From: Metallumcola ferriviriculae
GTDB lineage: Bacteria > Bacillota > JADQBR01
Reading direction: 5' to 3'
NCBI RefSeq assembly: GCF_035573695.1
Contig: NZ_CP121694.1
Span: 1,898,501 to 1,962,500, forward strand
Length of the DNA stretch: 64,000 nucleotides
Shown here: piece by piece, positions 36,207-61,489 of the stretch
Layout: each line of letters begins with the position of its first letter
Numbering within the stretch: the stretch's first letter is position 1
The notes under the pieces: generated by a model
Database searches by the model: none
The model's input: only the letters and a program-made list of their open reading frames with translations
Told to the model about the DNA's origin: nothing
Program-made: the position numbers and the translations under genes

Positions 36207-36332
36207 AGATCATCTCCTTTTCCAACGCCTACGAGGTTAGCTGTCGGGTTCGGGTTGGGAAAAGTAACCCTACCTCTACATAGAGGACTCACCCCAGAAA
36301 ATTGGGTCCCCCGTTCCTAAAGGATTCGGCGA
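36207..36332 (-). promoter_or_regulatory. c-di-AMP (ydaO/yuaA) riboswitch upstream of nhaA
   Basis: The minus strand reads CGCCGAATCC, AGGAACGGGGGACCCAA, GGGGTGAGTCC, GGGTTACTTTTCCCAACCCG, ACAGCTAACCTCGTAGGCGT and GGAAAAGGAGA, the conserved blocks of the ydaO class in order. Known ydaO switches turn off K+ and osmolyte import genes when c-di-AMP is high. A near copy lies at 40405-40532. Confidence 0.95.
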
Positions 36333-36361
36333 TTGCGTTATTAACTTTAGTTTCTACATTA

Positions 36362-40401: not shown

Positions 40402-40532
40402 ATATCATCTCCTTTTCCAACGCCTACGAGGTTAGCTGTCGGGTTCGGGTTGGGAAAAGTAACCCTACTTCTGTAAAGCAGAAGATTCACCCCAAAAAAT
40501 TGGGTCCCCCGTTCCTAAAAGGATTCGGCGAT
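40402..40532 (-). promoter_or_regulatory. c-di-AMP (ydaO/yuaA) riboswitch upstream of the MpsC-like/Trk run
   Basis: All conserved ydaO blocks are present on the minus strand (GCCGAATCC, AGGAACGGGGGACCCAA, GGGTGAATC, GGTTACTTTTCCCAACCCG, AGCTAACCTCGTAGGCG, GGAAAAGGAGA). It differs from the 36.2-kb copy mainly in one variable hairpin (CTTCTG...CAGAAG in place of CCTCTA...TAGAGG), where pairing is kept. Confidence 0.95.
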
Positions 40533-40560
40533 TACGCTATTAACTTTGTTCTTGACTACT

Positions 40561-41421: not shown

Positions 41422-41562
41422 ATTATACTGGGAATTAGTGCCAGTGGGAGAAAAAACGGTAGAACTAGTCACGCAGTCAAAGCTTTAGAAGCCAGCAATT
41501 AGGAGGTGAAGTTTTTTATACTGCAGTGGTTGCCGCAAGGGGTCTTTGGTGTTATGATTTAG
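41422..41562 (+). pseudogene. NADPH-dependent FMN reductase, N-terminal fragment
   Basis: Reads ILGISASGRKNGRTSHAVKA, the flavodoxin-like phosphate-binding start of iron-sulfur/FMN reductases, then LEASN, a TAG stop at 41500, then EVKFF and unrelated codons to a second stop. It keeps a GGGAGGGAG ribosome site but no ATG. No catalytic body remains. Confidence 0.65.
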
Positions 41563-43584: not shown

Positions 43585-44363
43585 TCACTAGCGTTGCATA
43601 AACAATAACCAGATTTGTCAACCATTAACAACGGCAGAAAAACTGCAGAAAATCACCGAAAAAGCCTGATTTAACAAGAAAAACCCCTTATAATAGAGAT
43701 ACAGGGTAGTCCTTGCCCAAATCTCTAAATAAGAGAGACAAAAATGCAAGGCAAGGATACCAAAAAATCCACATTTTATCAACTGTTCAAACCCATCTTA
43801 AATGGGCAGTTTTTCAAGCAAATAAAAGATTTAGGGGTTGATAAATACGTAAAAAAGCTTTTTACGCCACAATTCATCATTTTTATGATTTATGCTCAAC
43901 TTGAACAACTAAAGGGTTTACGAGCTATCAGTAACAGTCTTAATAATCAAGATTTCAGCCAGGAAATTAACCTTAAATCCATCAGCTTTTCGCAAATATC
44001 ACGGCGGCTAAACAATTTGCCCACAGAGGTTTTCCAAACGCTTTTTAAAGACCTAACCTTTAAGGTTTTGAAAGAGGCCGGCGACGACAACCGGACCATG
44101 AAGCAATCTACCAAGAAATACTAAGGCAGGTGATAACAGACAAAGCAGATCACTTGAGTGATCTGGACTATGACCCGGTAATTCCGTAAAAGTATATTCT
44201 CTGTCAAAATGTGGATGAGGAATACCCTTAGGTGGTTGCTCCTCTTTCACCAAACCAAAGAAACCCATTGTAAATATTATACATATATGCAAAATACAGT
44301 AATGCTGCGGCTTTTGAAATTTCCGCTTGCTATTTGTCAAAAGTTTTTATGCAACGCTAGTGA
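43585..44363 (+). mobile_element. Internally deleted IS4-family element with perfect ends
   Basis: TCACTAGCGTTGCATAAA at 43585-43602 is repeated exactly in inverse orientation at 44346-44363. The ~780 bp between hold only an N-terminal transposase fragment. The right end lies inside the group II intron fragment, so the IS entered or joined that sequence. Its ends are intact, so it could move if a full transposase exists elsewhere. Confidence 0.75.
43744..44124 (+). pseudogene. IS4-family transposase, N-terminal fragment
   Basis: 126 residues resembling the DUF4372 N-terminal domain of IS4-family enzymes: STFYQLFKPI, FTPQFIIFMIYAQLEQLKGL, ISNSLNNQDFSQEINLKSIS and FSQISRRLNNLP. The frame then ends TMKQSTKKY. 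The DDE catalytic domain is missing. Confidence 0.75.
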
Positions 44364-44975
44364 TTCTTTCTAAAAAGTTGATAGCTCGCATCTTTTTCCG
44401 TTTAAGCTTCTTAAATTTACCCTTAGTCCAAAGGACCAGATGTAAGTTGATGTACTCTAGGACTTTCCGTAATATTTTGCGACCGTTTTTCCCATAATAA
44501 TTCAACCACCCTTGAATAATGGGATTGTATTCTTTTGCAATTTCCTCTAGTCCAATGTGGTGTAATTTCAATTTCCACTTCCTTATTTCTTGTCTAATAC
44601 GTTTTTGCGCCTCTTGGCTAATTGCTGGCAGAAAACTTGTGAATTCTGCTCCCTTCCACCCTTTGGCTTTTCTGGGATGAAAGGTATAACCTAGAAAAGT
44701 GAAGTTTGTCACATCTTCTTTCTCTTTTCTGTTACTGTCCTTACAGTACACCACTTTTGTTTTCGTAGGATGTAATTCTAGGCCACAGGACTCAAATCGC
44801 CTACTTAGTGCTTGCCGCTTCTGCCTTACTTTTACAATGCACAATACCATCATCAGCGAATCGACAGATGGGGTTGTTTGGGAAATGTGACGCCATCCAC
44901 TTGTCAAATGCATAGGCATGAAGAGATTCTATAGTACAGGACTTATTACGCCAGCATGGCTTTTCCTCCTCCGAG
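44363..44975 (-). pseudogene. Group II intron reverse transcriptase/maturase, 3' remnant
   Basis: Pieces in shifting frames: GVISPVL with a stop, NLF, HAYAFDKWMASHFPNN, the catalytic-type motif RFADDGIVHC, then a shift to SCGLELHPTKTKVVYCKD, FTFLGYTFHPRKAK and the maturase domain IIQGWLNYYGKNGRK. At least two frameshifts or stops are needed. The last residues (RITSVA and stop) are encoded by the end of the mini-IS. The polymerase N-terminal half and the intron RNA domains V/VI were not found. Confidence 0.8.
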
Positions 44976-45100: not shown

Positions 45101-45128
45101 TTGCCATAATTGTATTTTAGGTTAAAAT
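45101..45128 (+). promoter_or_regulatory. Promoter of structured RNA copy A
   Basis: TTGCCA (45101-45106), 16-base spacer, TAAAAT (45123-45128). The conserved RNA core begins 20 bases later. Copy B has the same arrangement. Confidence 0.7.
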
Positions 45129-45148
45129 AAAACTGTAGTTTAATTCTG

Positions 45149-45270
45149 ACGGTCCGCATTAGGCGAGCAGCCAAGAGGTGCACGAGTGAAACTTGCTAGC
45201 GTTCACGTCTCGCCACAATAGGTGAGCAGACGAAGCACGCACGAGCATGGACAATTTAGGCCATGTAAAA
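45149..45270 (+). ncRNA. Structured RNA, copy A of a two-copy family
   Basis: Core from ACGGTCC to GGCCATGTAAAAT, alignable with 59671-59787. Shared blocks: ACGGTCC; GAGCA...CCAAG.GGTG.ACG; GTGAA; GAGCATGG...GGCCATGTAAAA. Shared hairpins: GCA(g)CC-AAGA-GGTGC here against GCACC-AAGG-GGTGT in copy B, where the closing pair changes G-C to G-U; and CATGG...CCATG with different loops. In copy A GGCGAG/CTCGCC can also close an outer stem. No open reading frame is shared. Its own promoter and terminators make it a free-standing RNA gene. I cannot name the class; the raiA motif is one of similar size worth testing. Confidence 0.65.
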
Positions 45271-45292
45271 TAACAAAATACTAAAAATGTTA

Positions 45293-45320
45293 CCACCCCT
45301 TTCTATTTCTAGAAGGGGGT
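45293..45320 (+). terminator. First hairpin after RNA copy A
   Basis: ACCCCTTTCT pairs with AGAAGGGGGT (one G-T pair), followed by TTCT. Equivalent in position to the terminator of copy B. Confidence 0.6.
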
Positions 45321-45333
45321 TTCTACGATTATT

Positions 45334-45377
45334 AACCGTCTTATCCCGAGGCACTTTCGGGATAGGGCGGTTTTTTT
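45334..45377 (+). terminator. Strong terminator after RNA copy A
   Basis: A 16-bp stem (AACCGTCTTATCCCGA with TCGGGATAGGGCGGTT, two G-T pairs), 7-base loop, then seven T. Confidence 0.85.
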
Positions 45378-45752
45378 ATAAGCTCTTCTAGGCGGCGCTC
45401 TGTTTCTTTGACGATAGACTCTCGAGTGAGACGTTGTTTTTTATTCTTTGGGGTGTTTGACGACAGCATAACGTTTTCTGGCTTCGCAATCATAATTGAT
45501 GAACCGACTAGTGTGGAACCGCTTGCATGATGGAGTAGGAGGGTCGCGGATAATCACCGCCCATTATCTCTGATTTTCTTAGGAAGAGAGATAGCCGATG
45601 CGCTAATGAGGCCCAATAAAATTGTAGACATGTGGAACTAAAGAAAATTATAATCCAGATGTCGTAATAATTTAATATACCGAAACTATAAATAAAAATA
45701 TCTCTAGTTATTTTATTTATTAATATTTTACGTTATATATACAAATACTTGC
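45378..45752. other. Gene-poor stretch between RNA copy A and the catabolic island
   Basis: On the minus strand a ~70-codon open stretch (about 45345-45555) includes KKQRLTRESIVKETERRLEE and runs through the terminator; I do not recognise it, and it lacks a convincing start. The AT-rich part from 45650 leads into the CoA-transferase promoter. Nothing else is supported. Confidence 0.35.
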
Positions 45753-45781: not shown

Positions 45782-45888
45782 TATTATATAGGAACATAGC
45801 TAGAGTGAAATATGGGATAAACCAATGAACGCACATCATTTTCATTACTATTTGTGCCGCTGGTGGTAGCGGCGGAATGGAGGTTATT

Positions 45889-59093: not shown

Positions 59094-59501
59094 ATGAAAA
59101 TACAAGATATCAAAATGAGAATACAAGATATTATCGAAGGCAAAAAAGAGTGGCGGGCGCACGCGGCACGTGTCAAAGCGCTCCCGCAAGATTATCAGAT
59201 TGTTTATAAAGAGGTTCAGAAATATTTCTTTAAGGTGGGCCCTGTTGAGCTAACCGACGGGATGGGTTTGCTCTCGGGGATTATCGATCTTTTTGAAGAG
59301 GGCGCGGCTTTGGGGAAAGGCGTGCTCGAAGTGACGGGCAGTGACGTAGCGGCTTTCTGCGACGATTTAATCAAAGATTCAAAAACTTACGCTGACATCT
59401 ATCAAGAATCTGCTGGCCAAGAAGTTAGCAAGGCCATGAAAAAGTTACGAATTAAACAAAGTAAAAAGGGGATATCGGGATGGAAAAAGCAATTGAAGTG
59501 A
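59094..59501 (+). CDS. DUF1048 protein, second copy
   Basis: 135 residues, aligned with the preceding protein: ALPQDYQIVYKEVQKYFFK, GLLSGIIDLFEEGAALGKGV, LEVTGSDVAAFCDDLI. It has a longer Lys-rich C terminus (RIKQSKKGISGWKKQLK). The two copies share the helical core but differ at both ends, so they may form a heteromer. AGGAGG precedes the ATG. Confidence 0.85.
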   Translation: MKIQDIKMRIQDIIEGKKEWRAHAARVKALPQDYQIVYKEVQKYFFKVGPVELTDGMGLLSGIIDLFEEGAALGKGVLEVTGSDVAAFCDDLIKDSKTYADIYQESAGQEVSKAMKKLRIKQSKKGISGWKKQLK

Positions 59502-59613
59502 AAGGTAAAAGACAGTTTATGCGGATAAGATACGAGTTCAACGTTTTCGGATAATGCAGCTAAATTTTATTTTTCATTTACTAAAGTCCTTGCAATTGCC
59601 TGTCAATCGTTTA

Positions 59614-59641
59614 TTGCAATAATTTACCATTATGTTATAAT
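59614..59641 (+). promoter_or_regulatory. Promoter of structured RNA copy B
   Basis: TTGCAA (59614-59619), 16-base spacer, TATAAT (59636-59641); same layout as at copy A. Confidence 0.7.
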
Positions 59642-59670
59642 TAACCTAATTAATAATTCTTCAAGCACCT

Positions 59671-59787
59671 ACGGTCCACAAAGTGAGCACCAAGGGGTGT
59701 ACGTTTGTGAAGCTTTCAGTGCCTACGCCCGTGTATCCTGCACAGCAGGCTAGAGGCGCATGAGCATGGCGTATCGGCCATGTAAAA
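59671..59787 (+). ncRNA. Structured RNA, copy B of a two-copy family
   Basis: Same conserved blocks as copy A (ACGGTCC; GAGCA, CCAAG, GGTG; GTGAA; GAGCATGG, GGCCATGTAAAA). Here GCACC-AAGG-GGTGT and CATGGC-GTATC-GGCCATG hairpins form, and an additional CCTGC-ACA-GCAGG hairpin is present in the middle. The variable parts differ strongly from copy A, so the copies are old paralogues rather than a recent duplication. Flanked by its own promoter and terminator, between the DUF1048 operon and dnaN debris. Confidence 0.65.
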
Positions 59788-59807
59788 CCGTATTTTACAA
59801 AAAATCA

Positions 59808-59845
59808 CCACTATGTCCTTTTTCAAAAGGCTATAGTGGGTTTTT
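59808..59845 (+). terminator. Terminator of structured RNA copy B
   Basis: CCACTATGTCCTTT pairs with AAAGGCTATAGTGG (one mismatch, one G-T), followed by TTTTT. Confidence 0.85.
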
Positions 59846-59927
59846 ATATACAAAAATCAATTTCAGGAGGTGACTTCTGACCGGGGGTAATAAACCAACT
59901 GCCCCCGGCAGGGGGCACCCCTGCAGG

Positions 59928-59990
59928 CAGGGGAAAAGTGTAAGCCTTGCAGCTACCAACGGTCATAAGCTAAGTGTAGCAGAAAACGTC
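59928..59990 (+). pseudogene. DNA polymerase III beta clamp, internal fragment
   Basis: A + strand frame reads SVSLAATNGHKLSVAEN, like the conserved ATDGHRLA segment of the second clamp domain. Only about 20 codons match. It touches the opposite-strand N-terminal dnaN fragment, so the gene seems to have been broken by inversion. Confidence 0.4.
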
Positions 59991-60163
59991 TTTGAAGCTA
60001 CCGAATCGTCCAGGTTAGTGGCAAACAGGGTGACGCTATCCTTGCTTTCATCGGTTTTAACCAGAAACGAGGACAGAATCGGCATGGTACCCTTCCCGTC
60101 CACCACTTTACCTACAAGGGTCATGCTTTCCTTTAGTTTCTTTGCATCAATAATAATCTGCAT
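59963..60163 (-). pseudogene. DNA polymerase III beta clamp (dnaN), N-terminal fragment
   Basis: From ATG 60163: MQIIIDAKKLKESMTLVGKV, GTMPILSSFLVKTD, VTLFATNLDDSV, then a premature end at about 66 residues. This is the first clamp domain (compare TLPILGN and TDLE in known DnaN). The remaining two domains are missing. A second dnaN copy of this kind usually belongs to a plasmid or mobile element. Confidence 0.7.
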
Positions 60164-60168
60164 TTTAA

Positions 60169-60402
60169 GTGCGACCAGATGTCCGGCAAAGTTCTCTTGT
60201 TCCCAGTTGGAGAGATGCCATCCGTGATGCGCTATCTGAATTGGGAAGGCAGGCAAGTCTAAAAAATCTCTATGAGAAAGTTTCCGAGCTTTACCCAATT
60301 AAGGCCAAAAAGAATTCTAACTGGCAGGCAAAAATACGAGAACGCCTGCAAACATGCCCGGAATTCTTCAGCACTGAACGCGGAGTATGGGAAGTGGTAT
60401 AG
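60169..60402 (+). CDS. HARE-HTH-like winged-helix domain, probably partial
   Basis: Up to 77 residues; the recognisable part is WRDAIRDALSELGRQASLKN, LYEKVSELYP, then KIRERLQTCPEFF and GVWEVV. This is a winged-helix module often found at one end of restriction-modification or nuclease proteins. Here it stands alone, with no clear ribosome site, next to dnaN debris, so it is likely the surviving end of a larger gene. Confidence 0.5.
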   Translation: MRPDVRQSSLVPSWRDAIRDALSELGRQASLKNLYEKVSELYPIKAKKNSNWQAKIRERLQTCPEFFSTERGVWEVV

Positions 60403-60679
60403 GGGTGTCAAGATGCAGCTGCGTCTTAGAAACTGTTTTGGGAACAGTTAATAGTTGTTACTTTATGAAATGCGTTTGCAGTAGGCCCTTCGTGTCAACA
60501 TGATAAGGATAATTATCAACGGCAGGCATTGTAAAGAAGAATGGCAATTGTATAGCTAAATATTTACAAAGGGTAGTAAGTTGTTAGTATATATTTTTCA
60601 TGGTATAATTTTACAAAGTCCATGGCTTTGGTAACTAGAAAAGTAATAACCGGGAATAAAGGTGGAGGGCTTGATTTTT
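60403..60679. other. Intergenic region upstream of the nucleotidyltransferase-HEPN pair
   Basis: AT-rich, no gene seen. It ends with GGTGGAGGG near 60660, the ribosome site of the next gene. Confidence 0.45.
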
Positions 60680-61126
60680 ATGTCAACTGGAATTGAAAAA
60701 AAGCAAAAAGATTTCATTAGACTGCGTGCAAATACCCTCTTGGCCCAGCGAGAAGAATGGCGTCCGTGGAAAAAGAAAGGTTACAGGGTTGCTGAAAGTG
60801 ACGGGAAAACTATCCTTCATGAAAAGGAAGCCATTCGTAGGACGGTAATGAAAATATTCAGCAATATTGACGCAGACATTTTTCTCTTCGGTTCCCAGGT
60901 TAAGGGAGACGTTACTATTGGCTCTGATTACGATGTTGGGTTTTATGCTGGAAAACCTATTTCCGGTTCAACTCTTACTCTCTTAAAGGGAGAATTGGAG
61001 GAACTACCTATTCCGGGGAGGGTGGACTTGGTCGACTTTAATAGTGTAGATCAGGGATTTACTAAACATGCCCTAAAAGAGGTGGAAATATGGAAGAAAA
61101 AAAAGAGCAGCTCGCTCTTAGATTAA
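60680..61126 (+). CDS. Minimal nucleotidyltransferase (MNT) of an MNT-HEPN pair
   Basis: 148 residues. Polymerase-beta-type core FGSQVKGDVTIGSDYDVGF, with Gly71-Ser72 and Asp83-x-Asp85, and a later acidic residue in GRVDLVDF. In known type VII toxin-antitoxin pairs the MNT protein adds AMP to its HEPN partner and neutralises it. A ~50-residue basic N-terminal extension precedes the core. It overlaps the HEPN gene by 37 bases, typical of such pairs. Confidence 0.85.
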   Translation: MSTGIEKKQKDFIRLRANTLLAQREEWRPWKKKGYRVAESDGKTILHEKEAIRRTVMKIFSNIDADIFLFGSQVKGDVTIGSDYDVGFYAGKPISGSTLTLLKGELEELPIPGRVDLVDFNSVDQGFTKHALKEVEIWKKKKSSSLLD

Positions 61127-61489
61127 AAACACTTGAGAAAGCACTTTCAAGTCTTGAGGAAGCTTTAAGTCAACCTTATTCCGTTTTTATCAGGGATGCC
61201 ACCATTCAACGTTTCGAATACACCTTTGAGCTATCATGGAAGCTGCTTCGAAGGGTAGCAAAAATCGAGGGCCGCGAGGCTAATTCTCCCAGGCAAGCTA
61301 TACGTGTTACTTATGAAACAGGAATCATCAAAGACATTGATCTCTGGTTTGAAATGTTAGAAGATCGTAACAAGAACATCACATGCCTATAGCCAAGAAA
61401 TAGCTGAGTTAGTATACGCTAGTGCTCAACGGTTTCCGGATTTGTTAAAACTGACTTTGCAGGAAATAAGGGAACTTTATCTAAGATGA
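61090..61489 (+). pseudogene. HEPN (HI0074/HepT-like) partner with a one-base frameshift in its RNase motif
   Basis: Reads normally through YSVFIRDATIQRFEYTFELS, WKLLRR and EMLEDRNK, then an extra A at 61375/61376 changes EDRNKTSHAYSQ to EDRNKNITCL and a stop at 61390. With that base removed the frame continues SHAYSQEIAELVYASAQRFP to LRELYLR-like end and TGA 61487-61489, a complete ~132-residue HEPN protein. The insertion falls inside the conserved R-N-x-T-S-H motif that makes HEPN proteins nucleases. As written, the toxin would lack its catalytic His. Confidence 0.75.

Follow-up and report, generated by a model that had tools for sequence, protein, structure and literature searches.

The window, the whole 64,000-nt stretch of DNA that was analysed, contains two related loci, copy A (45101-45377) and copy B (59614-59845), whose coordinates had been given correctly in the original prediction. 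In both, a GC-rich core of ~120 nt lies between a promoter-like sequence and terminator hairpins, and both lie among decayed genes. The features of the two loci and their neighbours are listed below; P0 to P6 are helices predicted by folding.

43744-44124, IS fragment with a DUF4372 domain, left of copy A
44347-44919, minus strand, truncated group II intron maturase, left of copy A
45101..45128, plus strand, putative copy A promoter, TTGCCA-16-TAAAAT, 10 of 12 consensus letters, homologous to that of copy B
45149..45270, plus strand, copy A conserved core (ACGGTCC ... GGCCATGTAAAA), 53% GC against 27% in the 100 nt upstream
45167..45181, plus strand, copy A hairpin P2, GCA(g)CC-AAGA-GGTGC, pair probability 0.38-0.54 in the full transcript
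45199..45240, plus strand, copy A arm P3-P4-P5, pair probability ~0.9 for P3 and P4 and 0.25 for P5
45245..45266, plus strand, copy A hairpin P6, GCATGG...CCATGT, pair probability ~0.9
45295..45320, plus strand, copy A first hairpin (11 bp) with a weak T-run, found by folding and aligning with the terminator region of copy B
45334..45378, plus strand, copy A strong intrinsic terminator, stem 45334-45372 followed by a T-run
59614..59641, plus strand, putative copy B promoter, TTGCAA-16-TATAAT, 10 of 12 consensus letters
59670..59675, plus strand, copy B closing helix P0, 5' strand, pairing with 59787-59792
59671..59788, plus strand, copy B conserved core, 55% GC against 29% upstream
59687..59700, plus strand, copy B hairpin P2, GCACC-AAGG-GGTGT, within P1 (59677-59682 with 59704-59709)
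59719..59759, plus strand, copy B arm P3-P4-P5, from folding and pair probabilities
59764..59783, plus strand, copy B hairpin P6, from folding and pair probabilities
59787..59792, plus strand, copy B closing helix P0, 3' strand, pairing with 59670-59675
59808..59845, plus strand, copy B intrinsic terminator, stem 59808-59839 followed by T5
59865..59873, plus strand, perfect Shine-Dalgarno sequence AGGAGGTGA, ~20 nt past the terminator of copy B
59963-60298, minus strand, DNA polymerase III beta clamp-like N-terminal fragment (E 6e-4, below the Pfam cut-off), right of copy B

Left of copy A, perfect 18-bp inverted repeats at 43585-43602 and 44346-44363 flank the DUF4372 fragment. The stretch 43585-44363 is probably a decayed IS element, comprising this transposase-like fragment and abutting the truncated maturase. 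On the other side, the next plus-strand gene past copy A encodes a CoA transferase and begins at 45877, 500 nt downstream. CoA-transferase homologues were fetched from G002, a relative from another genus, and from elsewhere in the source genome, and none had the RNA adjoining it (at most 6.1 bits with filters off). Left of copy B, a PadR-DUF1048-DUF1048 cassette ends in a cut-short ABC-transporter gene. Positions 59332-59506 matched positions 1-176 of L096 in G002 over 176 nt at 94% DNA identity; the match stopped at 59506, where the ABC gene is cut in the window, whereas the gene is intact in G002. There it lies directly behind a DUF1048 gene, with no RNA between them. The sequences suggest a recent transfer of the DUF1048/ABC cassette, followed by deletion or insertion. 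The beta clamp-like fragment right of copy B is apparently a remnant. The motif AGGAGGTGA occurred five times in the window, compared with 0.36 expected. Neither the site at 59865-59873 has an ATG, GTG or TTG at a usable distance behind it, nor does the one at 41501-41509 have any of these close behind, hinting that both may be lost gene starts.

Local alignment of copy A with copy B gave a score of 61, whereas 5000 dinucleotide shuffles gave a mean of 19.6 (sd 3.2) and a maximum of 40; the Gumbel estimate was ~4e-8. Across the core alignment, 75 of 127 columns were identical. Identity was high at both ends and low in the middle (30/37, 20/49 and 25/30 aligned positions by segment), and the blocks identical in both cores were ACGGTCC, GAGCA, CCAAG-GGTG-ACG, GAGCATGG, and GGCCATGTAAAA. 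By this comparison, A and B are true homologues and diverged copies, in agreement with the original prediction of two ~120-base relatives with conserved blocks in otherwise diverged sequence. The similarity spanned the matching promoter through the terminator region and stopped near these elements, with no terminal repeats in common seen. Exactly two copies were found in the 3.72-Mb genome. We rejected a mobile, MITE-like repeat on the copy number and on the terminal sequences, as had been anticipated.

The two promoters were identical at 5/6 positions in the -35 element, 10/16 in the spacer, and 5/6 in the -10 element. Promoter-like sites were frequent locally (7 and 5 in ~1.1 kb, where shuffles averaged 2.9 and 1.7), and weight therefore rests on the A and B promoters being homologous rather than on their presence. 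A terminator scan called only the second terminator of copy A and did not list that of copy B; folding formed all three hairpins. The similar promoters upstream and terminators downstream that had been predicted were thus recovered, the former as homologous sequences and the latter as hairpins that form on folding. Each copy has the make-up of a stand-alone RNA gene as read from its sequence, namely its own promoter and terminator and no ORF.

We then considered the fold. In copy B, P0 (TACGGT/ACCGTA) was predicted to close three arms, P1/P2, P3-P4-P5, and P6, and the ensemble was well defined, with a pair probability of at least 0.8 for nearly all pairs. In the full transcript of copy A, the pair probability of P0 and P1 was 0, and the partner strand of P0 was absent from the matching place. 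Two hairpins, GCA(g)CC-AAGR-GGTGY and CATGG...CCATG, were common to both copies, and the first showed a G-C to G-U change. Comparison of the pair therefore upheld the claim of two shared hairpins, one of which keeps its pairing through such a change. The strongest conservation was in this hairpin and the internal loop that flanks it, in the AGCA bulge, in the junction letters, and in the last hairpin, GAGCATGG...CCATGTAAAA. The middle arm had changed much in sequence between the copies, with pairing still possible.

The consensus fold, computed with RNAalifold on the unmodified (unforced) MAFFT alignment of the two sequences, had an energy of -21.3 kcal/mol, whereas column-shuffled alignments averaged -10.6 (sd 3.2) and only 3 in 1000 of them were as low. 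We also built a covariance model, R1, with a structure set by hand from which P5 was excluded, as its register differs between the copies. Of its 23 pairs, 20 were canonical in A and B alike (16 unchanged, 2 one-sided, and 2 compensatory); 2 others were gapped and 1 was broken in copy B. Compensatory pairs in the predicted consensus numbered 3, no excess over the null mean of 2.8, and A/B covariation is thin. When the cores were folded alone, their energies were unremarkable, that of A being no better than shuffles (z -0.5, 54 of 200 shuffles as good) and that of B slightly better (z -1.8, 13 of 200). Full transcripts, terminators included, each beat 200 of 200 shuffles (z -5.2 for A and -4.1 for B). 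Within the modelled fold, P2, P3, P4, and P6 are supported, and P0, P1, and P5 are only proposed. Each copy has the anatomy of a transcription unit without a convincing ORF, with a fold that both copies can adopt.

Rfam 15, applied to the whole window at the gathering threshold, matched neither copy; its matches in the window were two c-di-AMP riboswitches, one SAM riboswitch, and one tRNA. A permissive cmscan (E up to 10) of A and B returned sub-threshold matches only, mostly around the terminators of copy A. The original prediction could assign no known class and proposed an Rfam scan of both copies, the outcome of which agrees with it. It had also named the raiA motif as a lead. The raiA motif, or ModT, is likewise stand-alone, structured, and ~200 nt long (209 model positions in RF03072). 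According to PMC11706538, this RNA has its own terminator and a longer isoform produced by read-through to a second one, with eight paired regions and two pseudoknots. Copy A resembles ModT/raiA in its two tandem hairpins, and ModT is like the A/B RNA in kind. However, the RF03072 covariance model gave 0 matches at E<=10 in A, B, or the whole genome, and the raiA lead was dropped.

Another likeness is with the rare candidates of GC-IGR surveys, which, in PMC6429828 and PMC11109978, are also GC-rich structured islands in AT-rich intergenic DNA with few representatives. The A/B RNA, with two representatives in one genome, is set beside these candidates by description only. In PMC11109978, a candidate usually ranks low when it has fewer than five representatives. 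By this rule the A/B RNA, known from two sequences, is a candidate of low rank and not an established class.

We next searched for relatives. The source genome's class, order, and family were represented in the collection by three genomes in total, and in the two other family genomes no copy was detected by DNA search, pattern, or model. R1, built from the two sequences, was run on 199 and then on 398 genomes of the phylum, the source genome included; the two draws partly overlap, and the larger-set search used a first-look step and stricter filters. No credible relative was detected in the 397 other phylum genomes. Five weak matches outside the source genome (14.9-18.2 bits) had poor alignments and were attributed to chance; four (L124, L125, L126, and L128) overlap long reading frames, and L127 was judged by an alignment like that of L125. 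A pattern for the 3' hairpin occurred in 13 of 398 genomes (source genome included), at 15 places outside the source genome, all rejected, the best of which re-scored at 18.3 bits (L067) and lay inside the start of a gene. A pattern for the 5' block occurred in 21 of 398 genomes (source genome included), and its 21 outside places, best re-score 9.2 bits, were rejected likewise. In genome_contigs (84,980 species by its description), a strict pattern found 0 stretches. A looser one found 22, all of which were re-scored and rejected, the best at 19.0 bits, about what the demanded letters alone give.

A model search from the two copies, proposed in the original prediction, has thus been run over phylum genomes and returned no credible relative in the 397 others. 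The prediction of a functional noncoding RNA family stood as regards homology, the promoter-to-terminator extent, and a conserved fold, which only 3 of 1000 shuffles equalled in stability; as regards family size, these searches yielded no third sequence. The apparent restriction to the lineage of the source genome means that the RNA was not found elsewhere at this sensitivity.

We consider the chances about even that A and B are diverged copies of one small, lineage-restricted structured RNA gene with a shape-based role in trans. Discrete transcripts would measure ~190-245 nt for A and ~200 nt for B, and the B RNA would fold as a closed junction with P0 around the three arms. For such an RNA the shape would be what matters, with binding of a protein (or ligand) in trans as the likeliest mode of action. 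As the hairpin, loop, and bulge are conserved while the middle arm changes, a shape-based role fits better than antisense action with a single-stranded seed. Transcription, the exact fold, function in trans, and the partner are the steps that we infer. Given the decaying surroundings, A and B may also be relics.

A bolder form of this reading, which we advance tentatively and with the balance somewhat against it, is that the RNA represents a new structured class, with a closed multi-arm junction serving as an RNP scaffold or new aptamer. This class would occur only in one sparsely sampled lineage of class rank, where the sequences of the paralogues would have drifted apart but their fold, promoter, and terminator would have been retained. 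If real, the A/B RNA would be a structured RNA easily missed by cross-species surveys, as its lineage is undersampled. The paralogue pair would then offer a natural test of which parts of the RNA matter, and it illustrates a route by which paralogues inside one genome reveal RNAs too rare for cross-species comparison.

The main rival explanation is that A and B are orphaned 5' leaders, in which the core was an attenuator sensor (riboswitch-like or protein-bound), the terminator was the switch, and the downstream genes have been deleted. Riboswitch-type attenuators resemble copy B in its aptamer-like closed junction followed by an intrinsic terminator, with the orphan Shine-Dalgarno sequence behind it. 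They differ in that no gene directly follows A or B, the next plus-strand gene past A being the one at 45877, and no Rfam riboswitch matches; neither copy now lies directly 5' of a gene that it could control. The cut of the ABC-transporter gene beside copy B, where the G002 match ends, would fit a deletion. The Shine-Dalgarno sequence lacks a start codon, but the same motif is over-represented in the window, and at least one other occurrence (41501) also has no close start. In copy A, the conserved GACGGT is complementary to ACCGTC, which belongs to the strong terminator's 5' arm, a possible terminator/antiterminator competitor seen in A only; the equilibrium probability of this pairing is 0. 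The inclusion of the terminator region in the A/B similarity also counts against the orphaned-leader explanation. We consider this explanation unlikely but keep it in serious view, because of the decayed surroundings and the AGGAGGTGA without a start codon behind copy B. If correct, it would imply that a regulated gene has been lost and might add a new sensor.

Less probable still is that the copies are relics of a mobile-element RNA, such as a counter-transcribed or control RNA, stranded in debris. Their positions would suit this, with A between the truncated group II intron maturase plus IS fragment and other remnants, and B between the cut ABC cassette and the beta clamp-like fragment. However, distant blastn with both copies matched none of the 72,556 plasmid and 50,697 phage records. 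Among viral contigs, 43 stretches were read by eye, and none had the upstream blocks; they were taken for chance, as were 1 and 2 stretches from two other patterns (best 9.6 bits), leaving no credible match there. The copy number of two and the lack of visible terminal repeats also argue against such an origin.

An AAGRGGTG motif, which is Shine-Dalgarno-like, lies 5-7 nt before a GTG in both copies, from which frames of 11 and 18 codons run, both beginning Met-Lys-Leu. Beyond the third codon, the homologous frame is broken by a 1-nt indel, and six-frame protein comparison of A with B scored low even at its best (no more than 34, with 9 residues covered in the two alignments shown). Of the original prediction that there is no shared reading frame, the broken frame supports the substance, and the short GTG frames with their common Met-Lys-Leu qualify the wording; the sequences hold no convincing shared frame and do not look like a coding feature. 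A short-peptide gene or leader peptide, GTG-Lys-Leu behind AAGRGGTG at equivalent positions of A and B, would account for these frames and the motif ahead of each, but is very improbable given the indel, the unequal lengths, and the low six-frame scores.

Elsewhere in the window, the two c-di-AMP riboswitches lie on the minus strand at 36211-36341 and 40406-40540, ~4 kb apart, and scored 111 and 117 bits. At 60662-61392, a nucleotidyltransferase and a nucleotidyltransferase-substrate-binding protein are encoded side by side, a pair that we take to be possibly a toxin-antitoxin system of the MNT/HEPN type.
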